64,000 nucleotides of DNA, from the NCBI GenBank assembly GCA_030068145.1, contig JAPJBO010000248.1, positions 1-64,000 of the forward strand, read 5' to 3'. Positions 479 to 25,930 of the stretch are shown here, one piece after another. Each line of letters opens with the position of its first letter. Position 1 is the first letter of the stretch. Made by a program: the position numbers and the translations under genes. This DNA is from Diplonema papillatum (taxonomy: Eukaryota; Euglenozoa; Diplonemea; Diplonemida; Diplonemidae). The notes beneath the pieces are model-generated. The model made no database searches. It was not told the origin of the DNA and saw nothing but the letters and a program-made list of their open reading frames with translations.

Positions 479-3400
479 TCAGGCCCAGTCACTCGCGCTA
501 TCATCAGAGGGGAGCGCATCGGCAAAACTCAGCCCGCCTGCCGCCACTGACTCAAGGTCGGGCGTGTCCGGTCTGTCACCAGGCAACGTTTCGTCGACGT
601 GCCCAGATACAACCTCGCTCGCCTCCGAGTCAACAGGTTCTCTGCTGAAGCCCTCTGGCTGGCTACTCGCTGCGACACTCACGAGTGCACTTATCTGCGA
701 GGTGACTGTCTGAGAGCTCCAGACTGACCTACCGTCGCATATGCAGTCGCTTGTGGGCAGCGATTCCCCGTGGCCGGACTTTACCACGGCGAAACGGGGT
801 ATCAGCCCCGTGTCCTGCAAGTACTCAAGCGCCATTTCAGGGTGCTTGAACAGGACGTGCCACAGCTTGTCGGCGTTTGTTGCGCCCGACGGGAGGCGTG
901 CCGCCGGTTCGGGCCCTTTTCCTCTGGCCACTTTAGCCCACAAACTCATGCGGTGAGCTTGGCTCGAGGCTTCGACACATCCGATGAACATATGCTCCAG
1001 GACGTTCGGGTGGTAGCTTTTGCAGAACGCGCAGCTCCGATAGGCCCGCCTCCTCTCAAGCATATCCAGGTCCGCATAATCTGCAGCGTACATCGTCATT
1101 ACGAGCGGGTGGTGTCCGGTCCGGATCTGCCGGATCTCCCGCTCCGCCCGCACCGTAAGGTGGCAAGGGCGCTTGACGCTTCGCCCGTCTACAATCCTGG
1201 CGTATGGCATTGAGACGCGGTGTCGCTCAGCCCTGATGAACGCCGCGCGTGCCATCGGCTCGGTTGAGGCGAGGGTCGTAAACGCTTTATACCGTGTGAC
1301 TGCATCTTCTGCCGCTAACGGGGGCTCCCCGGGTGCGTTGCCTCTCGTCACCTCTCTGAAATGGTGGAAGGCCGCACGTTTCGCGAGGCTGTCAGTTACC
1401 TCGTTGCCGCGTAGGCCACAGTGCCCGTACACGAACTGCAGCGTTGTTGTGTAGCCCTTCTGGGAGATTGCGCTGAGCGCAGACCAGATGTACACGAGCA
1501 GCGGTTGCTTCTGCACTTGCGGGCCACCAGCCAGTAGACGCAGGAGCGACTGCGAGTCAGACAGGATGAGGATCCGCCGGGATTCGGGTGTGGGTGCGAG
1601 GATTTCCAATAGCGCCTTCATGGCTGCGGCCAGCGCTAGCGTCTCGGCTTTGAGGCTGGAAGGGAAACGGCCAGCTGTGTGGGCGAGGTGTGTCGACCGA
1701 AGGTTGCCAAGTTGACGGAACGAGTAGTCATGGCCGTTGGCGATGGTGATCGTTGGTGCACACTCTATCAGGGCGGCAGCCCCACCCCAGGTTCTGGTGT
1801 CTGCGTACTGCGTGGTCCATGGTTGCATGATGCGTTCAATGCGAGATCCAGGAGGTGGCGCCGGTGGTTGTTCTCTTAGTACGGACCCATCAGTCCACAC
1901 TGTGCAGTCGGGCACGGGAAGCTTGAGGAGGTATTGTTCGACGATCCGTTTCTTCTCAGCCGGACTACGCTTTTTCCCCTCAGGCAGGAAGGGATTGATA
2001 TCGACTGCCGGTCGAGGGAGCCAAGGTGCGAACGGGTTGAACGTGAGGCGTTCCCTCGGCTGCTTGTGGGTTCCGGACTTCACCGTCAGCTCTGCGTACC
2101 GACGATTCAGCGTCGACGGCCATCCGAAGGTGTCTGGCCACAGGTGCTTGCGAGGCATCATTCTCTCGCACAGGCTGCCGAGGCGCACGTCAATGTATGT
2201 TGCAATTGGGGGGATTCCGGCCTCGCGTGTTGCCACAAAATCAGATATGCCTTTACGGCAGCCAAGGACGTGAGCGATCGAGTTTGTATGAAGGCGTTCG
2301 AGGATGCCAATATATTTACTCGCCGAGAGTAACAGAAAGGGCCCGTAGACTGACAAGCAGTAAGTGACCGAGGGGATCACATACGTCAGATACATGCTAC
2401 GCAGTGTAGCAGTGCTGCACCCCCACGCTTTTCCAGACAGGTGGCGTAGTAGGTTAGCTCTCTGCGACATGCGCTTGACGGCACGTTCAGCATGCGGGTG
2501 GAACGTGAGCTCGTCGTCAATTATTAGGCCAAGAAACTTTGTCTGCTTGACCCAGCGCACGTTCACCGTCAGCTCGAGGATGACCCTTCGGTCGCGCGAC
2601 TCTCTATGGACGTCCAGTATGTCCTGGTTGGAGAATCCACTGCGGCCGTCGACCGTTTCAATGTGCTTCCCGTCGTGTTCAGCATATTCGGGTTCGTTGG
2701 CCACGAAGTTGTGGTTCCAGCGCGTTATCCACGCAGGCAGCTGCGCACCGGGAACACTGATGGTCTGCCTCGTACCCATAAAGCGCAATGGCGGCGGGAC
2801 TGTCCTTTTGTCCCGCGGGCATAGGAAGATGGCTTCGGTTTTGTGATGAGCCAGTCGCATTTTGGCTTTCGTCACCCATTCTTCAACCGCATCAACCACT
2901 TTCTGCGCCTTTGTCCCCAGTTCTGCTACCGAGGCCGCTGAGACGACCACCCCCACGTCATCAGCAAAAAGTGAAGGGGTTATGGTGTTGGGACCGGCAG
3001 TCGTGCTCCCGAGAGAGCCGCGGAGATCTTCAAGCTTCAGGCCCAACCCGTCAATACAGAACAGGAATAATAATGGGCCGAGGACTGTGCCCTGGGGGAC
3101 GCCACGCCCCAAGGAAACCTTCTTCCCAATCGTGCCGTCGATTTTGTATGCGGCTGTTCGTCCCTGCAGAAAAGCGTGCAACCATTGCAAGTAACGTGGT
3201 GGTACTCCACGCTTTTCCATCGCATTGAGCAGGAAGTCGTGGTCTACAGTGTCGAATGCGTTTGCAAGGTCAAACGACAGTAGGCACGAGAAATCTCCTC
3301 TACTGCGAGCCTGGTCCATGGCTGTGACTATGCTCATGGCCTGCTCTTCCGTGCCGCGTCCTTTTCGGAATCCGCCCTGTGAGTCACAAAAGGGTCGGAC

Positions 3401-5302
3401 GGATTTGTCCATCGGGTTATCGGTGGTAAAGATTAAACGGTTCTTTACCATGACCTCCAACAGCTTCGCGATCACACTCGTCAGTGAGATCGGCCTGTAC
3501 CCCTCAGGTGTACTGTGGTCCCTGTTAGGCTTGGGGACAGGTATGACGTGGGCCTGCCTCCAGCTTGGGGGGACCACTGCTGTCGTCCACGAGATGTTGT
3601 ACACCTCAAGGAGGAGCCTTTTGGTGTCGTCACCTACGTGTGCCAATACCGTCGAGCATAGGCCGTCGGGATCCAGTGACGTTGTTTTGCGGAGCTCGGC
3701 GATTGCCCGGTTGAGCTCCAACTCTGTGAACAGTGTCTCCGCCACTTCGATCTCGCCACTGAGCTGTAAGCTAGGTTTCCACTGCTTGGACAGCTGGGGA
3801 CTATTCAAATCAAGTCGGCATATATCCGACAGGTGCTCCCCAAAGATGTCAGCCTTTTCCTTGGCATCCACCACTCGCGTGTTACCGACCTTGATTGGTG
3901 GGACGGAGTACCGTTGTGACCTGCCGTCAATCCTCCGTATTTGCCGGTAAAGAAGGCCGATATCCGAGAACAGATTGATCTTGGATACTATCGTGTCCCA
4001 ATACCCAGCTTTCGCCCTCGTTGCCGCGGAGGTGAAGGACTCCTTTAACTTCTCGTAGGCGCTTGTCTTTTCCTCGTTCTGAGGGTCGGCCGAAGCCTCC
4101 GCATGCGCCGTCGCCTTCTCCTTCTCCAAGCGGCTGAGTTCGGGCGTCCACCAAGCTTTGTGCACCCGACCGGATGAGGATGCAGGCACGAATTTACGCA
4201 GACCAGCTTGGAGAATGGTCGTTGCCTTTTCAGCGAGTTCAGCGTTAACAGACAGCCTCCCTGCGAGAAGTCTCCTGCTCTGCTCGTCAAGGAACGATGC
4301 CATCTCCTCCCAGTCAGCTTTCGCCCAGGAGTACCCTTTGCGGGTTTGCGTTTTAGTTAGCCGGTAACCTCTCGGTAGCTCAAAGTAGACCGGCCTGTGG
4401 TCGGAGCCCCATGGTTCAAGGGCCCTCCAGTTGACGACAGCATCCGGTATTGCGGCTGATATGACAACGTCAGGAGAGGAGGCCCTTGCATGTCTCCTGT
4501 GGCACATTGTCGATGTTGCAGGGTCGTTCCAAGTTTTGGCCGAGTTCAGCTGGAGCCAGTCATGGAGGGTTTCGCCCCCCGGGTTTACAGTGCCCCGTGA
4601 CCAATCCGTGTGGTGGACATTGAGGTCGCCGGCTATTATCACCGTGTCGTCCATTGGGAAGGGGTGCATGTTAATCTTCCTGGATTCTACGGCTGTTGGC
4701 TGTGGGGGTCTATAAACGTTGTAGACCTTTATCGGAGGTAGGCCTATGCGTTCGACTGCTACAGCAATGCATTCCATCGCTGTGTCATCATCGAAGGAGT
4801 CCACTGGTAGCAAGCTGGCTGCTAGATTGGACTTGACGAACGTTGCTACACCTCCGTACCCACCACCCCCAGGCCTGTCACGTCGGTACACCCGATATCC
4901 AGGAAGCTCGGGGGGCAGGGACCTGTCACTGAGCCAGGTCTCCTGCAACAGGAGAATATCGGGCTTGTAACGCTCGGTTAGGCGGCTGATTTCGTCCCTG
5001 CTGTTTGGCGGATACTCACGTGCCTTGAATGATCTGCAGTTAAAACAGATCACTCTCAGCAACTTTTCCGGGGCACATGTCACCGGCCGGTGTGCCTTCC
5101 CTCCTTCACTGGCGCCACTGTGTTTTGTCCTGCCGTGCGGTTTTCGTTGTCTGGCTCCGCGTGGGCCGGTACGGGGCGTTGCCAGACCCCGCATATTGGC
5201 AGGTGCTTGCTTTAGCCCCTCATTGTGGAAGTGTGGGTCGAAAGGCGTGCGAGGAGGTAGCAACCCTTCCCCTGGTCCTGAGCGGTGAGTCTCGCGGTCC
5301 AC
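479..5302 (-). CDS. LINE ORF2: APE endonuclease, reverse transcriptase, RNase H
   Basis: This 1607-residue protein would nick the target, prime reverse transcription and degrade template RNA. The endonuclease spans about residues 82-310, with N88, E121, a GDLN motif at 225-228 and SDH at 300-302. The RT spans about 530-820: motif A is SFDLANAFDTVDH near 675-687, motif B is GVPQGTVLGPLLF near 733-745, and the catalytic FADD is at 778-781. RNase H spans about 1131-1311 with candidate acids D1137, E1219, D1248 and D1303. A C-x2-C...H...C knuckle follows at 1423-1441. The tail is Ser/Asp-rich. The order endonuclease-RT-RNase H fits Ingi/I-type elements of trypanosomes. The start lies inside ORF1 and is in the +1 frame relative to it, so reinitiation or frameshifting is needed. 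All catalytic residues inspected are present. Confidence 0.93.
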   Translation of the reverse strand: MDRETHRSGPGEGLLPPRTPFDPHFHNEGLKQAPANMRGLATPRTGPRGARQRKPHGRTKHSGASEGGKAHRPVTCAPEKLLRVICFNCRSFKAREYPPNSRDEISRLTERYKPDILLLQETWLSDRSLPPELPGYRVYRRDRPGGGGYGGVATFVKSNLAASLLPVDSFDDDTAMECIAVAVERIGLPPIKVYNVYRPPQPTAVESRKINMHPFPMDDTVIIAGDLNVHHTDWSRGTVNPGGETLHDWLQLNSAKTWNDPATSTMCHRRHARASSPDVVISAAIPDAVVNWRALEPWGSDHRPVYFELPRGYRLTKTQTRKGYSWAKADWEEMASFLDEQSRRLLAGRLSVNAELAEKATTILQAGLRKFVPASSSGRVHKAWWTPELSRLEKEKATAHAEASADPQNEEKTSAYEKLKESFTSAATRAKAGYWDTIVSKINLFSDIGLLYRQIRRIDGRSQRYSVPPIKVGNTRVVDAKEKADIFGEHLSDICRLDLNSPQLSKQWKPSLQLSGEIEVAETLFTELELNRAIAELRKTTSLDPDGLCSTVLAHVGDDTKRLLLEVYNISWTTAVVPPSWRQAHVIPVPKPNRDHSTPEGYRPISLTSVIAKLLEVMVKNRLIFTTDNPMDKSVRPFCDSQGGFRKGRGTEEQAMSIVTAMDQARSRGDFSCLLSFDLANAFDTVDHDFLLNAMEKRGVPPRYLQWLHAFLQGRTAAYKIDGTIGKKVSLGRGVPQGTVLGPLLFLFCIDGLGLKLEDLRGSLGSTTAGPNTITPSLFADDVGVVVSAASVAELGTKAQKVVDAVEEWVTKAKMRLAHHKTEAIFLCPRDKRTVPPPLRFMGTRQTISVPGAQLPAWITRWNHNFVANEPEYAEHDGKHIETVDGRSGFSNQDILDVHRESRDRRVILELTVNVRWVKQTKFLGLIIDDELTFHPHAERAVKRMSQRANLLRHLSGKAWGCSTATLRSMYLTYVIPSVTYCLSVYGPFLLLSASKYIGILERLHTNSIAHVLGCRKGISDFVATREAGIPPIATYIDVRLGSLCERMMPRKHLWPDTFGWPSTLNRRYAELTVKSGTHKQPRERLTFNPFAPWLPRPAVDINPFLPEGKKRSPAEKKRIVEQYLLKLPVPDCTVWTDGSVLREQPPAPPPGSRIERIMQPWTTQYADTRTWGGAAALIECAPTITIANGHDYSFRQLGNLRSTHLAHTAGRFPSSLKAETLALAAAMKALLEILAPTPESRRILILSDSQSLLRLLAGGPQVQKQPLLVYIWSALSAISQKGYTTTLQFVYGHCGLRGNEVTDSLAKRAAFHHFREVTRGNAPGEPPLAAEDAVTRYKAFTTLASTEPMARAAFIRAERHRVSMPYARIVDGRSVKRPCHLTVRAEREIRQIRTGHHPLVMTMYAADYADLDMLERRRAYRSCAFCKSYHPNVLEHMFIGCVEASSQAHRMSLWAKVARGKGPEPAARLPSGATNADKLWHVLFKHPEMALEYLQDTGLIPRFAVVKSGHGESLPTSDCICDGRSVWSSQTVTSQISALVSVAASSQPEGFSREPVDSEASEVVSGHVDETLPGDRPDTPDLESVAAGGLSFADALPSDDSASDWA

Positions 5303-8204
5303 CGGACAACCTGCCAGCGGTGGTGGGAGAGCTCCTCCTACTTGGGTGCGGCGACTCAGAACGGCTCGGCGTGGGTGTTTGTGCCCTCACTGTTGTATAG
5401 GGTTGGTACTTGGGGCGGGGTGCATCCTGCTGAGTGAGCGCTCTGTCCGGCGTGGGCGCAGGTTGATCTTGTCCAGGTACAGGTCCCCTACAATCGACAT
5501 GTTCCTCTCCCATTGTGGCGCTTGTTACACAACTGTGTTCCGATCGAGAACAATGAACAGACCCTCCAGAGGCTGCTGGCTCCCGACGTTCGGAGGCATC
5601 AGTCACGGCCCGTTCAACAGCAGCGATGTCAGAGGGAGCCGGTAACTGGGAAGTGGGGGGGCACTCGTCTCGGGATAGCACACCGGAGAGGCTTGGTGCC
5701 GCCCCCGCTACCATCGGGGTGGATGTTGGACAGGAAACGGCCTCCCGGGTAGTCACCAGGTCCGGTGAACATGTGACGGCCACAACGGTGTAGTCAGATG
5801 TCTCGCCAGCAGGAGTCAACGTTAGCGGGCCGCCTGTCCGGCCTGGCAGCAGGGGTGGGCTCGAAGTGGTACTTACTGCATGGGCCGCTGGGGTGCGATG
5901 GGTTGCTGTGCAAACACCGCTAACGTTACCATCGGCTCGAAGACAGACAGGCGCCTCCCGAGGGCGGCAGGCCGTGGAGTCCCTTTCCCTGCGAGGTGCT
6001 GACTCTGCGTCACTGGGAGGGGTGTTCCCACGGTGTCCATCACGTGGGCCCTCATCAGAATTTCTGCGTCGTCTCCGTGATTCGTCGCCCCCATGGGTGA
6101 CCGCGGCTGAACGCCGATCCCGCGCCCTGGATGACGAGCCTATTGCGGCATGATCGTGGTAGTCAGCCTCAGTCCTGGCGGTGACAGATCGTACAAGTTG
6201 GGCACCTTGCATCGCAGCCTGCGGGCAGTAGGTCGTCTGTTGCGGGGCAGCACGGTTATAACCCTGCTTCAGGGTATTGATCTCAGCTCGCAGCTGAGCA
6301 GCCTCAATTTGTGCCGAGTTCTCGGAGGGTTGGGGCAGCTGTCGCTTGAGGCTTGCCAATTCGGCCCGGAGTTGGTGTAGCTCGATTGAGGGCTGGTTTG
6401 CCTCTTGTCTCAGCGTTTGAACATCAGCTTTGAGCTGCTGCATCATAGCAGCCGGCGTGTGTGTGGTGGTGTGCGAGAGGATGGCTTGGAGCGTGGCTTC
6501 GAGGCTGGCCATCCTTGCTCCCAGTTCCGATTCCCCCGTTTGGCCAGCCACCGTGTTTTCCTGCCGGCCAGTTTGCCCAGCTTCCTTGCGGTCTTCCGTG
6601 TTCCCTGATTTTTTCCCGCACCCCGTTCCATCTTCATCGACTCGTTTACCGCCGAACAGTGGCTGCCCTTCCCCGGTGTCCACGTCCATGTCAGTTTGCC
6701 CCTGTGCACAGCCCGGGGTCTCCCCCGCCACTTTCCACATGAGCTCTGCTTCACGCCCGCGTGGAAATCTCTGACGGAATTCCTGGTAAGTCAGGCTCTC
6801 CTTGGAGATAGGGTCCCGTCTCCTTTCACCCTGGGCGTGTTTTTGAGCACGGTACTCAGTGGAGAGCGTTGGTCCTGGGGCGTGCCTTACCGGGGGGGTC
6901 GGGTCGTCGCCGATCCTGCGGATTTTCAGGTTCACTCCTGACCGAGTGTTGTACTCCTCCTGTCCTGGCAGCCATTCAGAGAGCACGACCCAGTTCACCA
7001 GACGCCTTGTTCCTGCTTTCTTGAACAGAGGGGAGACAATCCACCCAAGCGCTTGGAGATTGGCGCGAAGTGTGGCAGCATTAGTGCCGCTCGGGATACC
7101 CTGCACCAGGAAGGTACCTTGTACTGGGGGGAGCAGCCCCTGTGTAGCGAGTTCGCGCCTAACCCCGTTATAGGCATCGTCTCTGACACGGATCCCGTAC
7201 CCCTTGCCAGCCTCAATGAGCCCGCAGTGGGCGTCCCCAATCAGTGCCGCCACTTGCAGCGCATGGTCTAGCGTGCAAACCCCCAATTGTACAACCCTGA
7301 AGGGCGATGTATTTAGGGGGGTCACGAACACAGCGCCCACCCCGCTGGACCGGATAAGCTGCTCAGACTCTTCCAGGGGTACTGTTACCCGTACCTCACA
7401 GAAGCCATCCCCAACTCGCGCCCCCCATGCATCGGCCACCTTATCCATCATAAATCTGCCGTTCAGGAGGTGCTGTGTTAGGAGTACCGGGTTCTTTTGT
7501 AGGGACTGCAGCTCTGGGTCTGGGGCCGTCACTAGGGTCGCCGAAATTTTAAGGGCGAGGAGTGGGGTCTCCCAACCAGGGTACAGTTTTTCTCGTTCAC
7601 CTAGCAGTCCATCATCGCGTACCACTGTGACGCGGACTTTCGGGTCCTTTCGGGTCGCGCCGGACGAGCTGGGGGGGCTGCCAGCCCCCCTGCCGGTACT
7701 ACCACGGCCGCCTGCACCCGGTCTCCGGCCACCCCCTCGGAGATTAGGCACTACACAAAGTGCTTGGGAAAGTCCGCTGTCAAACCCAGACTCGCGCAGT
7801 GACATCTCTAGGGGAAGAGGGGTTCCGCTGCCCCGGATTACCCGGGCTTCTGGGCCAGGGATGAGGTCCTCCAGCACATCTCCAAGGTAATCGTCCAGCT
7901 TGGCGGTCACGCAGTGCCTCTTGCCATTCACGTCCGTCACGAAGAACGTTGTGACAGGTGAAGTTGGGGGGTGTGTAACGGCACCTTGGGGTGCTTGGGC
8001 CGCTTGTGTCATTGTTTTCCAGGCTCCCCCAGCGGTCCCCTGTTCAGGCTGGGTCAGCCACGCCGTCAGGTCAGCCGGTGATTCACTGTGGGTCGCCAGT
8101 GTGTGGAACAATAGAAGGACCTCCTGGAGTAAGGCCGCCTTTTTCTCGTACTCCCTCCGCAGGGCTCTGCGGCGCGCTCCCTCGCGGTCGTAACGCCTTA
8201 TCAA
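5220..8204 (-). CDS. LINE ORF1 with ubiquitin-like domain, RRM-like region and coiled coil
   Basis: This 994-residue protein occupies the ORF1 position, where LINEs encode an RNA-binding chaperone. Residues 86-158 match the ubiquitin fold in length and pattern: a GK turn near 94-95, an RVIR segment matching the ubiquitin QRLIF strand, a SLRESGF segment matching TLSDYNI, and a terminal LRGG at 155-158. Residues 362-412 read as an RRM-like strand-helix pattern similar to LINE ORF1 RNA-binding domains. Residues 557-650 form a Gln/Leu-rich coiled coil. The C-terminal 340 residues are low-complexity Ser/Thr/Pro/Arg. The ORF overlaps ORF0 by 122 nt and ORF2 by 83 nt. The ubiquitin-like call rests on my eye alignment, not on a search. 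An LRGG end followed by a Gly/Arg linker is what deubiquitinases cut, so self-release is possible (inference). Confidence 0.82.
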   Translation of the reverse strand: MIRRYDREGARRRALRREYEKKAALLQEVLLLFHTLATHSESPADLTAWLTQPEQGTAGGAWKTMTQAAQAPQGAVTHPPTSPVTTFFVTDVNGKRHCVTAKLDDYLGDVLEDLIPGPEARVIRGSGTPLPLEMSLRESGFDSGLSQALCVVPNLRGGGRRPGAGGRGSTGRGAGSPPSSSGATRKDPKVRVTVVRDDGLLGEREKLYPGWETPLLALKISATLVTAPDPELQSLQKNPVLLTQHLLNGRFMMDKVADAWGARVGDGFCEVRVTVPLEESEQLIRSSGVGAVFVTPLNTSPFRVVQLGVCTLDHALQVAALIGDAHCGLIEAGKGYGIRVRDDAYNGVRRELATQGLLPPVQGTFLVQGIPSGTNAATLRANLQALGWIVSPLFKKAGTRRLVNWVVLSEWLPGQEEYNTRSGVNLKIRRIGDDPTPPVRHAPGPTLSTEYRAQKHAQGERRRDPISKESLTYQEFRQRFPRGREAELMWKVAGETPGCAQGQTDMDVDTGEGQPLFGGKRVDEDGTGCGKKSGNTEDRKEAGQTGRQENTVAGQTGESELGARMASLEATLQAILSHTTTHTPAAMMQQLKADVQTLRQEANQPSIELHQLRAELASLKRQLPQPSENSAQIEAAQLRAEINTLKQGYNRAAPQQTTYCPQAAMQGAQLVRSVTARTEADYHDHAAIGSSSRARDRRSAAVTHGGDESRRRRRNSDEGPRDGHRGNTPPSDAESAPRRERDSTACRPREAPVCLRADGNVSGVCTATHRTPAAHAVSTTSSPPLLPGRTGGPLTLTPAGETSDYTVVAVTCSPDLVTTREAVSCPTSTPMVAGAAPSLSGVLSRDECPPTSQLPAPSDIAAVERAVTDASERREPAASGGSVHCSRSEHSCVTSATMGEEHVDCRGPVPGQDQPAPTPDRALTQQDAPRPKYQPYTTVRAQTPTPSRSESPHPSRRSSPTTAGRLSGGPRDSPLRTRGRVATSSHAFRPTLPQ

Positions 8205-9396
8205 TCGACTTTGCCTTCGCGTGAGCTTCCTGAGTATATTGCGAGGGGGGGGCGAGAGGCGAGGCTGTTTGGGTGGTGTCGTCGCAACTAGACGGGAAGT
8301 GTTCCTCGGGGCTAACGGGTACGACAGATGTTATCGTTGACATCCGCATTACCGAGGCTCTCTCTGGGAGCAAGATCGCATACGTTGGGGGGCCTCCAGT
8401 GGTGTCATGGGTGTGTCCCCCCGGTCCAGCCCGAGAGTACAAGCCGCTGGCGGAGTGTTCCCTACCTAGTATGGGTTCTCGGTAATCCAGGTAGTCCTCG
8501 GCATCGCAGTACCCCACCGAGGACCCAACGGCGAATGGGGAACCCGACCCCGAATCAGAGTCGCCCATGCTGTGCGCAGCCAAGTCTTCCGACAACTGCG
8601 AGCAGCCACAATCACCCACTGATACAGTTTCCTCCAGCAACTTGTCACCGGCAGACATGTACCTGCACCTTGTCAGGATAGATCTGCCGTCACTGCCAAA
8701 GTTAGCGGTACTAAGCCCCCCTAAGTTGCTATCGGCCGTGACACAGGGCCTTTCAATCGTGCACACGTCGCCTACCTTCACGTTGCAACTATTCGTTAAC
8801 AAGTATCCGACTAGACGTGGTGATCCTGTTCCTAGATACAAGCCGCCATTTCTTGCGGTTAGGCATGCGTCTCTCATTCGAGCATCTTGCACAAACGATG
8901 TGGCGTTGCAGACTGCAGGACTAGTTCGAACTCTCAAGCCGCCGGAGCACACGAAGAACCAGTTGTCCCGGGTAGACAGGCTGGTAATGTCAACAGCACG
9001 AGCAGACAGTCCGTATTCGCGACCGCGCTTGTACTTTAAGAGGGTGGGCGATCCAATTTGGGCGTCAAGTGAATACGGGCCTACGTTCCCGACGGTGCCG
9101 TCCGAGGCGACCCGCGAGAGTGGTCCGGGGTCACGCGCGTCGGCCGTCGTTGTTACCGTCACGTTCAGCGGTCCCTTGAAGTGCAGCATCAAGCACGGAG
9201 CCATTGCGTGATGTCTAGTGGGTGCGTTCGGGATCAACAAGAACAGCGGTGTTGAGTCTGGGTCCAGCAGCTTGCCGTCGTGGGTCGCGTGCGAGAGGGC
9301 TGGCACGATCCGCGAGATCCACACGCGGTTGCAGCCAGCAGACCGAGCGAGGACGTCGTTGTGCAGGCCCAGTGCGAACAAACGCCGGTCCTCCAT
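8083..9396 (-). CDS. upstream ORF (ORF0) of the Ingi-like element, unknown function
   Basis: The open frame runs back through the poly(A) run at 9415-9403, where it encodes a lysine run, so I take the ATG at 9396 just after that run as the likely start (about 437 residues). The N-terminal 250 residues are mixed alpha/beta-like with many cysteines (for example CSGG, CNATS, CRYM and CGCS motifs). The remainder is Ser/Pro/Gly-rich. No domain was recognised. It overlaps ORF1 by 122 nt in a +1 relationship, the same geometry as ORF1-ORF2, which argues that it belongs to the element. Alternatively it is a host ORF interrupted by the R2/CRE-like insertion. Confidence 0.5.
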   Translation of the reverse strand: MEDRRLFALGLHNDVLARSAGCNRVWISRIVPALSHATHDGKLLDPDSTPLFLLIPNAPTRHHAMAPCLMLHFKGPLNVTVTTTADARDPGPLSRVASDGTVGNVGPYSLDAQIGSPTLLKYKRGREYGLSARAVDITSLSTRDNWFFVCSGGLRVRTSPAVCNATSFVQDARMRDACLTARNGGLYLGTGSPRLVGYLLTNSCNVKVGDVCTIERPCVTADSNLGGLSTANFGSDGRSILTRCRYMSAGDKLLEETVSVGDCGCSQLSEDLAAHSMGDSDSGSGSPFAVGSSVGYCDAEDYLDYREPILGREHSASGLYSRAGPGGHTHDTTGGPPTYAILLPERASVMRMSTITSVVPVSPEEHFPSSCDDTTQTASPLAPPSQYTQEAHAKAKSIDKALRPRGSAPQSPAEGVREKGGLTPGGPSIVPHTGDPQ

Positions 9397-9603: not shown

Positions 9604-12600
9604 TCAGGGTGGATTCGCTTCGTCCGGTCGCGCCCCACCAGATGCAATTACGATCCTCGCCACCCCTTGGGCTATAGAAAAGCTCAAGCGGTGGAAGAGG
9701 TCCTGGCAGGCGGCCGAAGCGGTCCGGTCTTCACGGAGGGCGTTCGCGCGGGCGATGTGCCGCAGCTCCGTGATTGCTCCTGGGCACCAGGCCCCGAACG
9801 TGTCTACAACTAGCGGCACCGCTCGCCACTCCCGCGGGTCCGGCTCATTTGCGATGATCCTGTTGTAGACACGCTCCTTGACGGCAACAGCATACGCGGC
9901 TGCTGCGCCCCCTGGCTCCGCTGCGGCCCTGGTCGCGTAGTGGGGCTGCGAGAGCTGTAGGGGGTATGTGACTGCGACGTCAAGTAGGACGGTGGTGCCG
10001 TCCCGGACGTAGCTGATGTCCGGGCGCTTGCGCCGCGTGTTCGCGAACACGGCTCGCTCGATCGAGGGGCCCAGCAGCCCTCGACGTGCGAAGTCGGCGA
10101 CAATGTCCCGAAGCGCGTTGTGCAGGCGCGTCCGGCGGCCGCTGCCGAAACACGTTTGGGCGTGCGAGCCGATGACGTCGGTCGCCCCGTGCCCGCAGAG
10201 GCGGCACTCCCCTGGCGCGGCCGCAATTGGCAGCCCCAGCCGAAGGCGTACTGCCACCGCCAGTTCGGCCGAGGACAACCACATCCCGGTATCCGCTTCC
10301 GGGTTGCCGTACAGCCACGCCGAGGCGTGCTTGCCGGAGCTGCTTTGGATCCTCGCCCGGATCCGGTCTTGCGCCTGGGACAGGGCCGCTCCCTGCAGTT
10401 GGCTCGAGCGGGCGAGCTCCTCCGTTAGCAGGTCGAGGAGGTTCTTCCGCTTCTCGGTGGCCAAGGCGGACGACCACACCTTCTGTCCTCGCCCCTCGTA
10501 CTGGGTCCGCGCCTGCATGACGTCCTGGATCTTCTCCAGGACGGACTCATACGTTGCAAGGCGCGGGTCCGCGAGGGACGCTTGGACGGTGTCGTCCTGC
10601 TGCCACGTGAGGCGTGGCCCCAGGGCCTCGGACACGAGGGCGGGGAGATGCGTCCCCCCATCTAGTGCCGCCGCGATGTGCGCAATCCCTGTCACGTCTG
10701 CGCAGCTGTGGAGGCCGAGGCCACCCATCCTGACCGGGAGGGACGCTTGTGTCCACGCCGCCTCGTCGGTCTGTATCCCGGTGATAGTCGCGAGACAGGA
10801 CTGGGTGGCCCGGTCGACTCCCGCGAAGTCGAAGACGGACCCCGTCGCGCGCATGAGATGTACTACGCCGACGAAGCCCGCACAGAACTTCGTTAGCGTG
10901 AGCGCCACGTGCGCGTCGGGCAGGGACGCTATCATCCTCAGCTTCCTCTCCGCACCCTGTGCCGCCCGCTCGACGAACGCGTGGATCTTCTCTGGCGAGC
11001 CACACGGGACTCCCAGATGCTCGATCTCGTCGAGCGAGCACGTCTCGATGCCTTGCAGGCCGTCGGGTATCTCCGCCCCCGCCGCGATCGCCAGTCTGCA
11101 CTTGCCCCGGTTCAGGCGCAGTCCGACGGCCGCTGCCCGCCGCTCGTATCCCTGCAGCCAGCGCGCGATCGCGTCGAGGTCTCCGCCTGACACTCCATCG
11201 TCAAGGTAGAATGTCAGGAGATCGAGGTCGGCTTGGCTCAACGCTGAATGGCCGAGCGCTGCCTCCGGCCCCCCGACTTCCGGCTGCCCTTGTCCCTCCG
11301 GGCCCTGCGGCTCGGGCTCGGCTCCTGGGGCCCCCAACTCGACCGCCGGCGGGATTTCCGGGGCCGGCAGGACCTGGGCTGGTCCGGGGTCGACGTGCGC
11401 TATCCCCTGCGGCTCTGCCGCCCCCGGGGGGGGGCCGGCCTGGGCCGGGACTGCCGGTGGCCCTTGAACTGGTGCCAGCTCGCGCGCTGGCTGTCCCTGG
11501 GGCGCCGCTTCGTCCGCCGCGACCGGCGCGCCTGCTGGGCCTGCAGGTCCGACTGGTGGCGGCGGCACGACGCCCTCCCCTGGCCCGGGTGGGTCCGCCG
11601 GGCCGGCCGGCGGCGCCGCTGCTTCGGCCGGTGGCGGCGGCGGCGAGACGACGTCGTGCATCGCCAGGCTGAAGAGCAGGGGCCCCAACGGGTCCCCCTG
11701 CTGCACCCCGCACTCAGATGTGAGCGTCTTGTCCCCCACCTGCAGGATGGAGTGCTTGCCGTACGCCGCCTGGGTGTAGGCCAGGACCTGGGGGGCATGC
11801 CGGCTGGCGCTGCGGATGATCGCCTCCCTCTGCAGGGAGTTAAATGCGTTCTCCAGGTCCACCTGGAGGACGCCCTTACTTGCCCCGCCCTCCCTGCGGT
11901 ACAAGGCCGCCACCCTCCGGACGGCCAGGACCCCGGCGTCCGCGCCGGCCTTCACGCCTACTCCGACCTGCCCGCTTCGCAGGAGGACGTTCTGGCCGAG
12001 TTCCTTGACCGCCCGGTCGGACGCGAGGACCTTGCCGGCTACCCTCCTCAGAATCTCGCCGCAGGCGATGGGCCTGATCCCGCCCGTCCTTTTGACCAGT
12101 GGGACCAGCTTGGCCCCGTAGAGGTATGGCCTGGCGGCCGTCGGTACCCTCCCGGACGAGACCGCCCAAACGGCATCCGCCACGGCCTCCTTGAAGGAGC
12201 CGGAGCTGTCCCACAGGTCTAGCAGGTGCTGAGCTGACAGCCCGGAGGGGCCGGCCGCCGTGCCCTTCGGCATCTTCTTGAGCAGCCTCCGCACGGCGCT
12301 CGGCGCGGGCCGCGCCACGTTGGGGATCTGCATCGCTGGGTCGCCCTGCCACTCCTCGGCGGCCGGGTGTAGGTCTCTGAGCTGTGCCAGGGTGGCTTCG
12401 TCCGACGGGGCCGTCTGTGCTGCCGACAGCGCAGACACGGCTCGCGAGTAGCACCTGTCGCGCGCCCTCTTGATGACCTGGCGCACGGTGGGACCGTCCA
12501 GGTCGTCAACTGACCTGACCGCCGTCTGGAGCTCGACCCTGTAGTCCAGGTCGTCCTCGACTGGGTAGGCGCGCCGGCGCGCGCGGCCTTGTGCCTTCCC

Positions 12601-12975
12601 AGCCGTGATGGCCTGGGCCTCAGACCAGAGGGTCTCGAACAGGCCGTCCCTCCAGAGTCGAACCCGCCGGCGGAGGGCTTCCGTCACTGCCCTTCGGCCC
12701 CCCCGCGTGGTGGCGGCCAGGACGAGCGGGGCGAAGGCGTATACCCGCAGCCACCCCGCGTCGTCTGATGCCGCTCGCAGCACGGTCTCGAACAGGGCCG
12801 CTACCTGCGGCTTCGCCGTCGTGGGCACCCTGTTCAGCGTGGGCACATTGGCTGCGGCCACCTGGGCAAAGGTGAACGGGAGCGCCGCCCCTTGGAACAC
12901 CCTGCCTTGGGCCGCGCCCACCTCTGGGGCTTGGGGGGGCGGAGGCCTGGGTGCCGGATCCTGTCCTGCTGCCAC
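9604..12975 (-). CDS. R2/CRE-type RT with restriction-like endonuclease
   Basis: The protein is 1123 residues from the GTG at 12975. RT motif A is QVDLENAFNS (371-380), motif B is QQGDPLGPLLF (425-435) and motif C is YLDD (590-593). Between B and C lies a Pro/Ala/Gly-rich insert of about 130 residues (445-575), which is unusual for a palm subdomain. The C-terminus has a C-x2-C...H...C knuckle (near residue 921) followed by an RPD...LDV core (near 983), the signature of the restriction-like endonuclease of R2/CRE/SLACS-type LINEs that insert at specific sites. No in-frame ATG exists upstream. The frame stays open from a TAA inside the poly(A) at 13134 and includes a CxC...HCxxC finger near 13065-13010, so the true N-terminus is longer than the GTG start or is truncated. 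Confidence 0.88.
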   Translation of the reverse strand: MAAGQDPAPRPPPPQAPEVGAAQGRVFQGAALPFTFAQVAAANVPTLNRVPTTAKPQVAALFETVLRAASDDAGWLRVYAFAPLVLAATTRGGRRAVTEALRRRVRLWRDGLFETLWSEAQAITAGKAQGRARRRAYPVEDDLDYRVELQTAVRSVDDLDGPTVRQVIKRARDRCYSRAVSALSAAQTAPSDEATLAQLRDLHPAAEEWQGDPAMQIPNVARPAPSAVRRLLKKMPKGTAAGPSGLSAQHLLDLWDSSGSFKEAVADAVWAVSSGRVPTAARPYLYGAKLVPLVKRTGGIRPIACGEILRRVAGKVLASDRAVKELGQNVLLRSGQVGVGVKAGADAGVLAVRRVAALYRREGGASKGVLQVDLENAFNSLQREAIIRSASRHAPQVLAYTQAAYGKHSILQVGDKTLTSECGVQQGDPLGPLLFSLAMHDVVSPPPPPAEAAAPPAGPADPPGPGEGVVPPPPVGPAGPAGAPVAADEAAPQGQPARELAPVQGPPAVPAQAGPPPGAAEPQGIAHVDPGPAQVLPAPEIPPAVELGAPGAEPEPQGPEGQGQPEVGGPEAALGHSALSQADLDLLTFYLDDGVSGGDLDAIARWLQGYERRAAAVGLRLNRGKCRLAIAAGAEIPDGLQGIETCSLDEIEHLGVPCGSPEKIHAFVERAAQGAERKLRMIASLPDAHVALTLTKFCAGFVGVVHLMRATGSVFDFAGVDRATQSCLATITGIQTDEAAWTQASLPVRMGGLGLHSCADVTGIAHIAAALDGGTHLPALVSEALGPRLTWQQDDTVQASLADPRLATYESVLEKIQDVMQARTQYEGRGQKVWSSALATEKRKNLLDLLTEELARSSQLQGAALSQAQDRIRARIQSSSGKHASAWLYGNPEADTGMWLSSAELAVAVRLRLGLPIAAAPGECRLCGHGATDVIGSHAQTCFGSGRRTRLHNALRDIVADFARRGLLGPSIERAVFANTRRKRPDISYVRDGTTVLLDVAVTYPLQLSQPHYATRAAAEPGGAAAAYAVAVKERVYNRIIANEPDPREWRAVPLVVDTFGAWCPGAITELRHIARANALREDRTASAACQDLFHRLSFSIAQGVARIVIASGGARPDEANPP

Positions 12976-15673: not shown

Positions 15674-15928
15674 TTTTTAAAGTTAAAAACTTCTCTTGAG
15701 TATTCTTGATAAATTCGGCAGGTCCTGTAATTTTTGCGGATTTGAGAGAGATATGGCAATGAACCTATCGCATGCTGGCAGCTACGTTGCGGATTTTATC
15801 AACAATCTTGGCAGGGCCACACACGCCGTGCCCGGCCCACCATCGAAGTTGGAAAAAGTCTCGTGGTGTTGTATGTAAGGCAAGTCATCAATTCCTGCGG
15901 TGCTGCAGGAATCGATCACAAACACGAC

Positions 15929-16003
15929 TTTCGTATTTCGTTCGTATTTCGTAAATACGAAAAAATACGAAACGAAAAATACGAATACGAATTCGTACGA
16001 ATT
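15929..16003. repeat. AT-rich TACGAA/TTCGTA inverted and direct repeats
   Basis: Units of TTCGTATTT and its complement AAATACGAA alternate, so the strand can fold on itself. It lies directly before the 41-bp satellite array and after about 170 bp with no recognised feature. Confidence 0.7.
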
Positions 16004-16009
16004 ACCTGA

Positions 16010-16735
16010 CCCTGAGTGGGACAACCCTCAAACGTCAGTATTGGTGACCCAAAAAAGTGGGACAACCCTCAAACGTCAGTATTGGTGATCCAAAAAAGTG
16101 GGACAACCCTCAAACGTCAGTATTGGTGACCCAAAAAAGTGGGACAACCCTCAAACGTCAGTATTGGTCATCGAAAAAAGTGGGACAACCCTCAAACGTC
16201 AGTATTGGTGATCGAAAAAAGTGGGACAACCCTCAAACGTCAGTATTGGTGATCCAAAAAAGTGGGACAACCCTCAAACGTCAGTATTGGTGATCCAAAA
16301 AAGTGGGACAACCCTCAAACGTCAGTTTTGTTGATCCAAAAAAGTGGGACAACCCTCAAACGTCAGTATTGGTGATCCAAAAAAGTGGGACAACCCTCAA
16401 ACGTCAGTTTTAGTGATCCAAAAAAGTGGGACAACCCTCAAACGTCAGTATTGGTGATCCAAAAATGTGGGACAACCCTCAAACGTCAGTTTTGGTGATC
16501 CAAAAAAGTGGGACAACCCTCAAACGTCAGTATTGGTGATCGAAAAAAGTGGGACAACCCTCAAACGTCAGTTTTGGTGATCCAAAAAAGTGGGACAACC
16601 CTCAAACGTCAGTATTGGTGATCCAAAAAAGTGGGACAACCCTCAAACGTCAGTTTTAGTGATCCAAAAAAGTGGGACAACCCTCAAACGTCAGTATTGG
16701 TGACCCAAAAATGTGGGACAACCCCAGTTTTTGTT
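16010..16735. repeat. 41-bp tandem satellite, about 17 copies
   Basis: Each unit contains GTGGGACAACCCTCAAACG followed by TCAGTnTTGGTGATCCAAAAAA. Successive copies start 41 bp apart and differ mainly by T/A at one site and by GATCC/GACCC/GATCG variants. The period is not a multiple of three, so long ORFs across it are accidental. The same unit recurs at 29682-29851 (inverted), 25771-25805 (inverted) and 34361-34937. Confidence 0.95.
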
Positions 16736-17110
16736 GTCTGAAAAGTGGTCTAGCTGTGATTTCGAAGTGAGAAACACCAACAGGATTGTTGAAATGGGGT
16801 TGAAAAGTTTATTAGAAAACCCGTACCGTTTGGGCGGGGGGCGTAGCCCCCCGCACCCCCCTGTTTTTCATGTTTTTTGGCGGGATATCTGAAAAATTTC
16901 TGAAAAACTCGCGGAGAACACCAATCCGGAGTGATTACAGAATTCTGAAAAACCGGACCCTCCTGGGGGGAAAAGGTGGGTCCCCCACCCCCCCCTATAA
17001 ATGGTGGGCTGGTGGCCCGCTCAGGAAAAAATCTGTGCTCCCAAACAAAAAAATATTTATCGGAAACAAAAATATTTATCGGAAACAAAAAAATATTTAT
17101 CGGAAACGTT
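16736..17110. mobile_element. satellite-linked repeat unit, copy A
   Basis: Directly beyond the satellite lies a body that includes a GC hairpin (GCGGGGGGC / GCCCCCCGC near 16835-16855) and ends with GGTGGCCCGCTCAGGAAAAA and ATCTGTGCTCCCAAA. The same body sequences flank the 41-bp arrays at 25390-25770 and 34940-35205. Four copies of an AAATATTTATCGGAAAC unit follow at 17047-17110. No protein was recognised. I read satellite plus body as one dispersed unit (inference). Confidence 0.6.
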
Positions 17111-18600: not shown

Positions 18601-18860
18601 GGCCGGGGTGGAAAGAGTCTCTCGGGGGGGGGACCCACCCACCCTCGTTGCCGTCCGGCTGACAACGATGCCGAGTTTAGGGGCCTTAGCATCAGCACTG
18701 GGGGGGGGGGGTCGGTCAAAATTTTTATCCGACCAAATATTCGGAAAGCCCTGTCCTCAACGGATTCAAACGTGTCCTGAAAATGTCGAAACCGACCATT
18801 TTCGGACCTGCAGATGGAAATCTTCGGCAGAAGTCCGAAAAAACGGATCTGGCGCTTCCG

Positions 18861-18974
18861 TTGTTTGTGCGCACTTCCTTCAAACCTGTTTTGTTCATCT
18901 AACGGGAGTGAGGATAGTACGCTGCCATCGATCTGTTTTTGTTCTTGACAAATTGCATTTGTTAGACACAAAAA
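18861..18974 (-). repeat. terminal repeat of copy A, 3' side
   Basis: This is a repeat of about 112 bp running from TTTGTGCGCACTTCCTTCAA to GACACAAAAA on the plus strand. It is followed at once by a second, truncated start of the same unit (CGGATCTGGCGCTTCC plus TTTGTTTGTGCGCACTT, 18975-19012), a split-repeat layout like that of tyrosine-recombinase elements. Confidence 0.85.
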
Positions 18975-19105
18975 CGGATCTGGCGCTTCCTTTGTTTGTG
19001 CGCACTTACGGTCTCTACTTACTTTGTCTGATTACCCCCCTCCCACCCCTCCCCCTCACCCTCCCAGCATTTCCAGTAAACACGGCGGCTAAGAAAGCGA
19101 CACAT

Positions 19106-20593
19106 GGGTAGGATTCCGAGCCTACCTGCTTAGCTACCGGAAAACGAGGCGAACGTCGGATCGGCGGCTCGCGCGCCTCCGAAGATCCGAGTGTAAGCGT
19201 CGGCCGGGTTGTTTTTCGACTCCACGTAGAACAATGAAACCACTGACCCGACGACCTCCACCAGAGCGTATGCTTCACATAACATGTCGAAAAGAGGAAT
19301 AGTGTGCTCGCCATTCCTCCCCTCCCCGAAGACACAGCGTATCAGACGCAAAAGTGCGTACATCTCCAGCACATCCGCTGTACTCTGGTGGAGTCGGACC
19401 GTATCGAGGGTCATTCCCCAAGATGAAACACCAACCGCGAAGGCTAGCGTCGGTGAACGCAGTAAGAACACGCGTCGGGGGTGGCATCCACTTCGCCCAA
19501 GGATTGACCACAAGTTCTGCAAACTCGGCACGGAAAAGTTGCTGAACCTCGCCCGGGACCCCTACACGCTGCTTCCAGAATCCGGGATCCTTGCTGAGGC
19601 AATGGCCTGAACTTGTTGCCGACATCCAGCGCAGAAGGGAGGCTATATGAAAAAGTGGCTTCCTCAGGGCGTGTACCCTCCACAAAATCATGCCAGCCAG
19701 CCGCCACCACAGGCGCCGTTCGAATGCCCCGTGGACATCTATCTGGTCGACTACCGAGACAACCTTGGCCACCCAATCTCCATTCATGCGCCATTGTTTA
19801 TCCACAAGATTAAACTCCAAACCCAAGGCGCCCAATGAGGTTTCAGCTTCGGCTGAGCACTCACCGATCACTGCGGAGTATCGGGCGCAAAGAGCCTCGA
19901 ATCGCGACGAGGCTAACTCTAGTTCGGTGACCGTGTTTCCCACGAACACTACGTTGTCCAACCAAACAATAGACGAAGTCTCTGACGAACGAGTAGCCTC
20001 CGTCGCTAGAGCGCTCGCTACACTTTGCCCCAACTGCGGAGCAGGACGGTACCCCATAGCTAAGCGGCGCATCCAGTAGACAGCACTTCCGACTCGGAAG
20101 GCGAAGAATGGTCTGGTGCCTTCGGGCAGTAAGAACTGGAAAAACCAGCTCTTGAAATCGTACTGCCTAGCGAAGCGACCCTGCAAGATGGTGTCGACAA
20201 TATCCCTGTACGAGGACGCAGGCAAGGCAGATGTTTTATGGCGTCGTTCAGGCAATTAGTCGCCAGAATAAAGCGGAGACGACCGGCAGCCTTCTTACGC
20301 ACGCAGAAGGCCGGGTGGAAAACGCACCCCACCCGATTCCTCGGAGCCCCCTCGGCGACATGACCGGTGATGAGTTGGTCAAGTAACGGCTGCAAGCGCA
20401 TGTTCGGCGGGCCGAGAGCAGAAGTTCCGTATTCAACGCTGACTGTGGAGCCCCGTCGATCGTGCCCTCGTACGATGCCTTGGGAATTTTCGGCAGGCCC
20501 GAGCCCCATTCCCACCACGACCAATCGTAGTCGTAGTACTGCAGTACCGACCAGAGGCGCTTCATCGGATCCGCTGCACGGTGCGGGTCGCAT
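19106..20593 (-). pseudogene. RT-RNase H of VIPER/TATE-like copy A, broken
   Basis: The frame starts at the ATG at 20593, overlapping the recombinase stop by 32 nt. The RT fingers (FILATN) lie in one frame until about 20245. There the frame moves by -1 at an ATAAAAC site, shared with copy B, and continues with motif A YDFKSWFFQF, motif B-like RRLAMGY, and motif C as WLDN in place of YxDD. RNase H begins at FTDAS. Two deletions relative to copy B (11 bp near 19372 and about 62 bp near 19293) remove the third catalytic segment and shift the frame. The final segment with NPADAYTR is intact here but damaged in copy B. Confidence 0.85.
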
Positions 20594-21491
20594 CGAGCGA
20601 TTTCTGGGTAGGACCCCAGAACGCGCGGGAGATGTAGTTTCGCGATGAACTTATCGTGCGATGTCTTCCCAGCGCCTTTGCTGCTTGCTCGCCCAGAATG
20701 CTGGCCACCGAATTCAGTGCCGCATGGCGAACAAAGCGAGTCGAGACGCCCAGTCTCGTCTTCGTGAACGCATTGTAGCGCTCGTAGGTCAGACCTTCGA
20801 AGATTCTCAGGGTTGGCTCGGCAGGAATCGACTGCAGCCACTGGAGGAAGACAGCAGACAGGTGTCCGCTCTTCGGCAACAGAAGAGACTGTCCCTCGGA
20901 CTCGGGATCCGTCTTCCCTCCCACCATTGTCACCATGAAAGTGCCCGGTGGCACATCGAGGCGATCCAACTGCACATGTTGGCGCTCGAGCAGTTCCAAG
21001 TCCACCCAACGGGCACCCAGAGCCAGCTGTAGGGCAAGGGCTGCGGCGAAGATTGGCTCCGTTCTCAACGTCGCCATAGCGATGGTCCTGACACTGGGTA
21101 CCTTCGCCATTTTCGCTTCGTGCTGTTGAAACCGATTGCACTTCAGTTTCAGAGCTCGGCTGTAAGCCTCGAACGGACTTTTCAGCGACATGTGGTAGTA
21201 CGTCATGTACTGCCTTGCCGAAACCACCGAGATCTGGTCCGAAGACCTCAGGGTTTGGAGCCACATGAGGAAACACTCCTCGCGGGTGAGTTCCGGGTTG
21301 TGACGCTGAACTAGTTGGCGAAACTCTTCCGCCCTCCGGATCACGGAGATGAAGGCGGGCATTGTGCGTTTTTTGAACGCGGAGGCCATTGTACCTCGGG
21401 TGTTCTGCAGCAAGGTCGGGATAGCTGCGGGCTCGATCAGCGTCGGCTTTCGCGTCTGCGTTGCCGCGATGTGCGCCCGCCACAAGTGCAC
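20562..21491 (-). CDS. tyrosine recombinase of copy A
   Basis: The 309-residue frame would cut and rejoin the circular DNA intermediate at integration. Recognisable parts are GARWVDLELL holding the first catalytic Arg, TRFVRH in the H-x-x-R box position, LGRH in the position of the LGH box, and SSRNYI with the catalytic Tyr. There is no ATG at the start. The frame is continuous with the gag-like ORF upstream through a single TGA followed by CTG, so readthrough is the simplest route (inference). The sequence appears identical to that in copy B. Confidence 0.87.
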   Translation of the reverse strand: MHLWRAHIAATQTRKPTLIEPAAIPTLLQNTRGTMASAFKKRTMPAFISVIRRAEEFRQLVQRHNPELTREECFLMWLQTLRSSDQISVVSARQYMTYYHMSLKSPFEAYSRALKLKCNRFQQHEAKMAKVPSVRTIAMATLRTEPIFAAALALQLALGARWVDLELLERQHVQLDRLDVPPGTFMVTMVGGKTDPESEGQSLLLPKSGHLSAVFLQWLQSIPAEPTLRIFEGLTYERYNAFTKTRLGVSTRFVRHAALNSVASILGEQAAKALGRHRTISSSRNYISRAFWGPTQKSLDATRTVQRIR

Positions 21492-21524
21492 AGGGTCCTC
21501 CGGGCACTGAGAGGAGTCCGGCAG

Positions 21525-22350
21525 TCACTGCCTCTTTGCGAACTTTTTTGGCAACGAGCTGGGGGTAGGAAGGGCACGTTTCCTCCCCTCTTTCACCTTT
21601 TTTGACGCGTCCTGGACGCGGTCCGAGTCCAAAGTGGCTTTCACGGCCATTCGCAACACCTTGTCGGTGAACTCGTCCCACCGCACGCCGTGCAGGTACG
21701 ATTCGTATGAGATCGTCATGGCCGTCGCCACTGACGAGTGCTCATTCGACTCCCGACCGATCCGGAGAGCTTCCATCCGGACCATCAGCTGGTGGAGGAA
21801 CGGCAAGCGGTCTCGGGTCCAGACCTCTTTCTCGTTGCGAGAGTGACTGAGCACCCCCCACCTCTTCTTGCAGCGCTGCATACGCCGCCTGCTGCTGCTG
21901 CATCTGCAGAGCCAACGCCCGTACCGCCGGGTCCGTACTGGCGAGAGCCGATGGTGGCACAGCCATCGACTCTACGCCAAGAAGTTCCTCGTCGTCGAGG
22001 TCTTCTTGCTGGTCAGCCACTAGGCGATCAGGGTCGATAAGCAGCGCACCACCGCTTATCGCCCAGGCGCAAGGGGGGCACACCCAAGCGTTTTTTGCCT
22101 CCGGGAGGCCAAGCCGGTCAACCACCTGCTTGTTTTTCAGCCTGCTCTTCAGGCAGGTCTGATCGCCTTTGTTCCCACACCGGTAACAATTGGCACCCTC
22201 GGCGTGCACGGTGTCGCATGAGGGATAGAACACACAAGTTGTTCTTTCATCAGCTTTCGCCTCCTCCGTGGGCCACTCAACCGCGGCCACGTCCCTCCAT
22301 TTCACAGTAGAAAGATCAATGTCGTCACGATGAACGGCGGGCATTTTCAC
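21525..22350 (-). pseudogene. gag-like ORF of copy A with a 200-bp deletion
   Basis: The N-terminal half matches copy B: a Cys-rich zinc-binding region (CVFYPSCD, CYRCGNKGDQTC, CPPCAW), then an acidic stretch and Gln repeats. A deletion of 200 bp relative to copy B, falling near 21860, shifts the frame, so the C-terminal part is read in another frame. The protein cannot be made as one piece. Confidence 0.83.
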
Positions 22351-22362
22351 TTACGTCCCTTT

Positions 22363-22476
22363 TTGTTTGTGCGCACTTCCTTCAAACCTGTTTTGTTCAT
22401 CTAACGGGAGTGAGGATAGTACGCTGCCATCGATCTGTTTTTGTTCTTGACAAATTGCATTTGTTAGACACAAAAA
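22363..22476 (-). repeat. terminal repeat of copy A, 5' side
   Basis: It matches the copy at 18861-18974 almost throughout and ends GACACAAAAA at the junction with unrelated flanking DNA (GCCGAAATC). It contains or lies just upstream of the presumed transcription start for the minus-strand ORFs. Confidence 0.85.
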
Positions 22477-25805: not shown

Positions 25806-25818
25806 AAAACGGATCTGG

Positions 25819-25930
25819 CTTTGTGCGCACTTCCTTCAAACCTGTTTTGTTCATCTAACGGGAGTGAGGATAGTACGCTGCCATCGATCTGTTTTTGTTC
25901 TTGACAAATTGCATTTGTTAGACACAAAAA
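25819..25930 (-). repeat. terminal repeat of copy B, 3' side
   Basis: About 112 bp from TTGTGCGCACTTCC to GACACAAAAA, followed by the truncated second unit at 25931-25967. The leading CGGATCTGGC stem is shortened compared with copy A. Confidence 0.85.

Follow-up and report, generated by a model that had tools for sequence, protein, structure and literature searches.

A probable ubiquitin-like domain closing in a conserved di-glycine in the ORF1 protein of a LINE from Diplonema papillatum

The protein encoded by the first open reading frame (ORF1) of a long interspersed nuclear element (LINE) in Diplonema papillatum carries a domain that is very probably ubiquitin-like and that closes in a strictly kept di-glycine. 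The element lies on the minus strand of contig JAPJBO010000248.1 (assembly GCA_030068145.1; 271,365,524 bases in 2,910 contigs), from about 9,400 down to beyond 479, within the 64-kb stretch (C248:1-64000) that is called the window throughout. At the level of sequence profiles, the domain family is related to ubiquitin-family proteins, and both the ubiquitin-like (UBL) domain and its closing GG are, judged by codon comparison, under purifying selection. The anatomy of ORF1 (UBL, invariant GG, linker, probable RNA-binding and coiled-coil parts) most likely corresponds to a cleavable ubiquitin fusion, with FUBI–eS30 as the nearest known case. The parts of ORF1 are the following, where F2, like F1, A, F3, F3b and the families named after contigs, is a label made for this analysis:

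5220..8012, minus strand: ORF1 from its first ATG, 930 amino acids
7731..7955, minus strand: UBL domain of ORF1, very probably ubiquitin-like, residues 84-158 counted from the TTG at 8204, or 20-94 from the ATG at 8012
7731..7742, minus strand: LRGG tail, with the GG (7731-7736) invariant in 11 representatives and the LR variable
7650..7730, minus strand: G/R/S-rich linker after the GG, with few hydrophobic residues and poorly conserved
6825..7637, minus strand: part of ORF1 downstream of the linker (residues 190-460), conserved and folded in appearance, with 58-77% identity to F2 per 60-residue block
6240..6527, minus strand: possible coiled coil of ORF1, residues about 560-655, matched by several coiled-coil Pfam models, all below cut-off

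Read from the TTG at 8204, ORF1 comprises 994 amino acids (5220-8204), and its frame stays open as far as 8330. The initial annotation of this DNA had pointed to an ORF1 segment ending in LRGG, and such a segment is indeed present: the 74 codons at 7728-7949 (minus strand) read TFFVTDVNGK...CVVPNLRGGG, in the open frame 5220-8204. Its numbering as residues 86-158 is right when counted from the TTG at 8204 and becomes 22-94 if the ATG at 8012 is used. A third glycine and a Gly/Arg linker had also been described after LRGG, in agreement with the G/R/S-rich linker that the conserved GG opens. By analogy with other ORF1 proteins, residues 190-460 are probably RNA-binding; they gave no Pfam or PDB sequence match.

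The ubiquitin likeness claimed for this segment stands for the domain family, in that a profile of 11 relatives matches ubiquitins, but the single copy shows little of it beyond LRGG. The profile was taken from alignment A4, comprising 11 representatives of the UBL region and omitting further copies and near-identical members, together with L067/L074 (one partial place), L093 (ends before the tail), L096 (partial) and L073 (deletion). The profile–profile comparison that had been proposed as a check was negative when hhalign was given the single sequence, which found no match to ubiquitins, and positive with the 11 relatives: A4 matched the ubiquitin-family alignment with E 2.7e-4 (probability 42%) over 71 columns, from near the first column to the last. 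The A4 score of 24.9 compares with 8.8 +/- 1.9 for column shuffles (maximum 16.3; 0/200 as good). When the tails were cut off, the score was 19.3 against a shuffle maximum of 18.4, again with none of 200 as good.

The same profile was searched against the PDB (177,635 distinct sequences). Rows 1-10 were precursors of FUBI/eS30, the match falling on the FUBI part (E 0.0013-0.094), and the next six were ISG15/ISG17 (E 0.15-0.37); the first row not named as a UBL was EccD1 (E 0.48), which we take to be ubiquitin-folded too. Subsets of the alignment were also compared with ubiquitins. The two most distant rows (C277/C307) alone gave E 2.8e-4 (0/100 shuffles as good; 1/100 without the tail), F3 and F3b alone gave E 0.0064 over 13 columns (0/100 shuffles), and the nine LINE rows that remain without C277/C307 gave E 0.0092 (0/100 shuffles; 1/100 without the tail). 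In PDB searches, FUBI occupied the first seven rows both with the nine LINE rows (E 0.068-0.19) and with the seven nearest families alone (E 0.16-0.51), the latter match being in register from 36-78 to 35-75, down to the GG. Taken together, the ORF1 domain is in our judgement very probably ubiquitin-like.

Six columns of A4 are invariant, two of them being the closing GG. Numbered as in ubiquitin, positions 75-76 are GG in 11/11 representatives, position 73 is L, V, I or M, and the residue that follows the GG is G, K, D, Y, W or S. In all 11 the GG comes directly after the last strand, as placed by the alignment, and is followed by the linker. Conservation of the whole LRGG across copies, which had been set as a test, did not hold: LRGG is kept in 4/4 loci of the window's family in which the region is present (window included) and in no other ORF1 family read, and it is the GG that is kept instead. 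The LR before the GG, a feature of ubiquitin and NEDD8, is accordingly not conserved, and the tails of other families read VLGG, ILGG, LLGG, MHGG and LHGG, besides LQGG in L067/L074 and MRGG in C277.

The two glycines are encoded in different ways. In the seven representatives without a third G, the codons are GGG GGC, GGT GGA (three times), GGG GGG (twice) and GGA GGG; for the four other representatives the second and third G were read. Since these codons differ synonymously, it is the amino acids, not the bases, that are kept. Among the 55 pairs of representatives, 24 have a nonsynonymous distance (dN) below 0.75, and in 15 of these, all with unsaturated synonymous distance (dS), their ratio omega is 0.10-0.47. 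The identity of the UBL between the window's family and F2 (59%) is within the range of the remaining ORF1, while that between the window's family and C2 (53%) is above that of the remaining well-aligned blocks (19-47%). For F2 against C2 the UBL reaches 43% and another ORF1 block 53%, so the UBL is not always the best-kept part of ORF1.

The assignment of the domain to a LINE ORF1 was borne out by its presence in the ORF1 of other LINE families. Searching the genome with ORF1 yielded at least 95 match rows (rows being pieces; 46 of 5038 first-look candidates scored), which comprise near-identical copies, F2 at 60-61% identity and F3 at 42-43%. Among the matches listed, the untruncated F2 and F3 rows start at query residues 66-84, and the UBL is therefore part of the conserved ORF1 protein. 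The UBL region was read in 25 loci, corresponding to 24 places as L017 and L018 coincide: four of the window's family (window included), 17 of F2, which share one identical UBL, and four of F3 type. The GG is at the same place in 25/25 and LRGG only in the four loci of the window's family.

With the F2 UBL as query, at least 150 rows were obtained, which fall into many identity classes (scoring covered 150 of 192 candidates); 149/150 of the rows listed reach the query's GG or run beyond it. Twenty loci were fetched from these classes, and the GG was found in 19, the frame of the remaining one ending earlier. In L073, part of the UBL is deleted and the GG is lost. The search with the F3 UBL led to the more distant relative C277/C307, ending ..GGDEIELHARMRGG and ..GGDEIEVHARMRGG. 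As to the position of the domain in the protein, the window's family has 19 residues ahead of the UBL from the first ATG, if that ATG is used, and the C1469 class has its first in-frame ATG about 9 codons ahead of the UBL. Scans of viral_contigs, genome_contigs and plasmids with ORF1 or its parts returned no relative. A genome scan with PF00240, taken up to E 0.01, yielded 79 matches, host polyubiquitin included, none of them at any element UBL read. The genome has polyubiquitin genes, one of which (G000:C173:165180-167447) holds ten ubiquitin units in one 793-amino-acid frame.

Considered alone, the window copy provides suggestive evidence of ubiquitin likeness when its sequence is anchored on the tail. 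With the tail included, the domain ranks 2nd (ubiquitin) and 1st (Rub1) of 1388 sequence windows under BLOSUM45, and 12th and 1st under BLOSUM62; once the LRGG of ubiquitin is removed, it falls to ranks 85th and 70th. There are seven LRGG sites in all, four with enough preceding sequence for anchored scoring. The 78 residues upstream of the domain's own LRGG score 35 and those of the three others tested 7, -2 and -8; a score of at least 35 was reached by 8/3154 random anchors, 5/579 anchors in transposon or WD40 frames and 4/1000 shuffles.

The other routes from the single sequence gave nothing. PF00240 does not recognise the window domain, phmmer of the single domain against the PDB listed no UBL (best row a P450, E 0.41), and a purpose-built UBL hidden Markov model scored 290/2000 shuffles as highly as the domain. 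Glocal profile threading of the single sequence gave z -0.18, with z 3.8 for a left-out Smt3 control. All these single-sequence routes having failed, the verdict from them on their own would be 'chance'.

Several further results weigh against the reading of ORF1 as a cleavable ubiquitin fusion, some bearing on the likeness to ubiquitin and others on the cleavage. Pfam UBL models miss the window domain and the F2, F3, F3b, C277 and C307 segments (E up to 1 or 10). AlphaFold on the lone sequence predicted strand-strand-helix with low confidence (pLDDT 44.8); a second model, also of low confidence (pLDDT 57.9), was made with ubiquitins supplied as the alignment and is for that reason circular. 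When both models were compared by Foldseek and VIA-align, most of the proteins listed had a ubiquitin fold, none with a Foldseek E as low as 0.001, and these listings carry little weight. The profile evidence is also unevenly distributed among the rows. The seven nearest families alone reach E 0.18 against ubiquitins, with 15/100 shuffles as good (9/100 without the tail), and a four-row profile of three families gave E 0.04 in hhalign and EccE3 (E 0.13) as its best PDB row. The window's domain thus reaches ubiquitin in part through the FUBI likeness of its own family and in large part by way of F3 and C277, which are themselves modestly linked, at E 0.003 and 0.009 within one genome. Because of this split among rows, our estimate that the domain is ubiquitin-like was lowered slightly, to very probable.

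With regard to cleavage, R at position 74 is confined to the window's family and C277/C307, with L or H elsewhere (Q in the partial L067/L074), and positions 71-72 of the window copy are PN where ubiquitin has LR. In several families about 126 to 490 further residues of the open frame precede the UBL, so the UBL need not be N-terminal. Both the variable LR and this extra sequence speak against cleavage, and a GG that opens a glycine-rich linker could be a hinge.

How the domain may be used is suggested by FUBI–eS30 and ubiquitin–eL40, natural ubiquitin fusions in which the UBL aids folding or solubility and ubiquitin-specific proteases (USPs) cut after the GG. By analogy, ORF1 would be a UBL, nearest in sequence to FUBI, fused through a flexible G/R-rich linker to a probably RNA-binding protein. 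The UBL would fold early and assist the folding or solubility of the fused ORF1 part; the mature ORF1 protein would then be set free by a host deubiquitinase of USP type cutting after the GG. On this analogy a beta-grasp fold, cleavage, a protease for it and a benefit to the element would be expected; cleavage after the GG as the main use of the UBL is put forward tentatively, at a little under an even chance. The domain might instead remain uncleaved, as a docking module through which the LINE particle meets a partner (proteasome, E3, USP or one of p97 type), the GG being just the start of the flexible linker. The UBLs of Rad23 and of many USPs act as docking modules, and UBLs in USP proteins are often regulatory. 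Variation at position 74, glycine-rich linkers, a UBL well inside the protein in several families and a relative that sits in a USP-bearing protein all agree with docking, but the adjacent GG is fixed in 11/11 while the next residue and the linker vary, and a hinge needs no exact GG; we regard docking as possible, if doubtful.

Release of the UBL followed by its conjugation, as a LINE-encoded modifier, or its action as a decoy for the ubiquitin or UBL signalling of the host, appears improbable. E1 enzymes use free di-glycine ends as their substrate and the LRGG of the window's family is the ubiquitin/NEDD8 tail, yet tail positions 71-74 vary widely among the families. Tagging and interference with host ubiquitin signalling by the LINE, both raised in the initial annotation, remain inference. 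It seems equally improbable that the domain is unrelated to ubiquitin, that is, a conserved ORF1 domain of another fold that ends in GG, with LRGG arising by chance in the window's family. The negative single-sequence searches and the seven nearest families, no better than shuffles (15/100 as good), would fit such a domain, but the 11-row profile matches ubiquitins even without the tail (0/200 shuffles) and FUBI tops the PDB list in three profile versions.

In the distant relative C277, a related UBL and a USP domain are joined in one protein:

L100:709-8985 = G000:C277:72000-81400, minus strand: C277 frame, 2758 amino acids, with UBL, zinc-ribbon-like pairs and USP domain

In this frame the UBL lies at about residues 217-292, with the tail ..ELHARMRGG, and there are two zinc-ribbon-like CxxC pairs. 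The USP domain (residues 1047-1284) matches PF00443 with 28.2 bits against a cut-off of 23.9 (E 1.8e-6), and the best PDB matches are USP21 (E 0.0028) and USP36 (E 0.035). Segments resembling the Cys, His and Asp boxes were found by inspection (GLRNVTGSCCFASSVIQML, TGHFICV and HNDSV); strict USP-box motif patterns gave no match on the C277 frame. Further on in the same frame, a second stretch resembles a cysteine protease by eye (TCALFACVMAL ... GGPEGHFIYL).

The identical C277 UBL was found in at least four loci. In the C384 copy the middle part is missing and the shared parts are >99% identical, as expected if the C277 type is a repeated, perhaps mobile, element. Action of its USP on the LINE protein is conjecture. 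A mobile-element-borne ubiquitin-like system, in which the FUBI-like UBL of the LINE ORF1 is cut after the GG and a C277-type element brings a related UBL with its own USP, so that transposable elements would carry both substrate and protease, is in our view unlikely.

The remainder of the LINE consists of a further upstream frame and of ORF2:

8083..9396, minus strand: ORF0, upstream open frame of 437 amino acids from the ATG at 9396, opening right after a poly(A) run
479..5194, minus strand: ORF2 from its first ATG (5194), 1571 amino acids
about 4397-5044, minus strand: ORF2 endonuclease (PF03372, E 1.7e-20)
2771-3538, minus strand: ORF2 reverse transcriptase (PF00078, E 7.8e-31)
1370-1633, minus strand: ORF2 RNase H (PF00075, E 1.3e-5)

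With an apurinic-type endonuclease and a reverse transcriptase recognised in the ORF2 sequence, the element is a non-LTR (long terminal repeat) retrotransposon. The best PDB match of ORF2 is LINE-1 ORF2p (E 6.5e-20), and an ORF2 scan found no match in viral_contigs and a single weak reverse transcriptase match in phages. ORF0 has no Pfam match, and it overlaps the open stretch of the ORF1 frame (8083-9396, minus strand). A second LINE, with its reverse transcriptase frame at 9604-12975, lies directly upstream of the ORF1-bearing one, and we take the poly(A) run ending just before the ORF0 start for the tail of this upstream LINE.

The window DNA is eukaryotic and repeat-rich, with 57.7% G+C and an rRNA fragment. 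This fragment, of eukaryotic large-subunit rRNA, lies at 56473-56807 (minus strand; 145 bits) and is partly duplicated in tandem. Two copies of another element, >99% identical in most parts and bounded by 117-nt direct terminal repeats, are found at 18856-22476 and 25812-29683, and the 117-nt repeat recurs at 51500 and 56259. The first frame of this element has a PHD-like match below cut-off and another frame a weak reverse transcriptase match (PF00078, E 0.02). A 41-bp tandem repeat array, an inverted relative and a third array lie at 15892-16847, 29723-29850 and 34356-34940.

Among known systems, FUBI (FAU), the N-terminal UBL of the eS30 precursor, is what the domain profile matches best in the PDB, and the two run colinear as far as the tail GG. 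In both cases a UBL is joined through a GG to an RNA-binding protein (in the LINE, probably RNA-binding), and the FUBI tail ..RMLGGK is close to the VLGGK, LLGGY and ILGGG of the element families. FUBI–eS30 is cleaved by USPs, and PDB entry 8bs3 contains a USP36 chain together with an eS30/FUBI chain. However, FUBI belongs to a host gene and is fused to a ribosomal protein, whereas the domain described here is part of a LINE ORF1, in the window copy 19 residues after the first ATG. Ubiquitin and NEDD8 share the whole-domain profile match and, in the window's family, the LRGG tail; the domain differs from ubiquitin in having at most 27% identity to seven viral-contig ubiquitins and in positions 71, 72 and most lysine positions.

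The ORF1 proteins of the LINE-1, Jockey and ZfL2-1 types likewise stand ahead of an ORF2 with endonuclease and reverse transcriptase, and share the probable RNA-binding region and possible coiled coil. In the part of the source available, known ORF1 classes carry RRM, CCHC, coiled-coil or esterase domains, and no UBL is named there (PMC3905857). NeSL, Utopia-1_TSP, Ginger1 and some Helitron and Mutator elements carry Ulp1 or OTU proteases, according to the available parts of two sources (PMC4640811, PMC2836005). As far as those parts go, these transposons likewise bring domains of the ubiquitin or SUMO pathways onto mobile elements, but the domain is a protease, not a UBL. No UBL in a LINE ORF1 was found in the open-licence literature covered, as judged by titles and abstract openings among the matches listed. 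A LINE ORF1 with a UBL-fusion architecture would on this basis be new, while protease-bearing mobile elements were already known.

LINE ORF1 proteins vary greatly, and little is understood of the additional domains found in them. An ORF1 that combines a UBL with a di-glycine kept by selection would be new in architecture, and it would suggest that this LINE matures its ORF1 protein via deubiquitinases, in the manner of ribosomal proteins fused to ubiquitin or FUBI.

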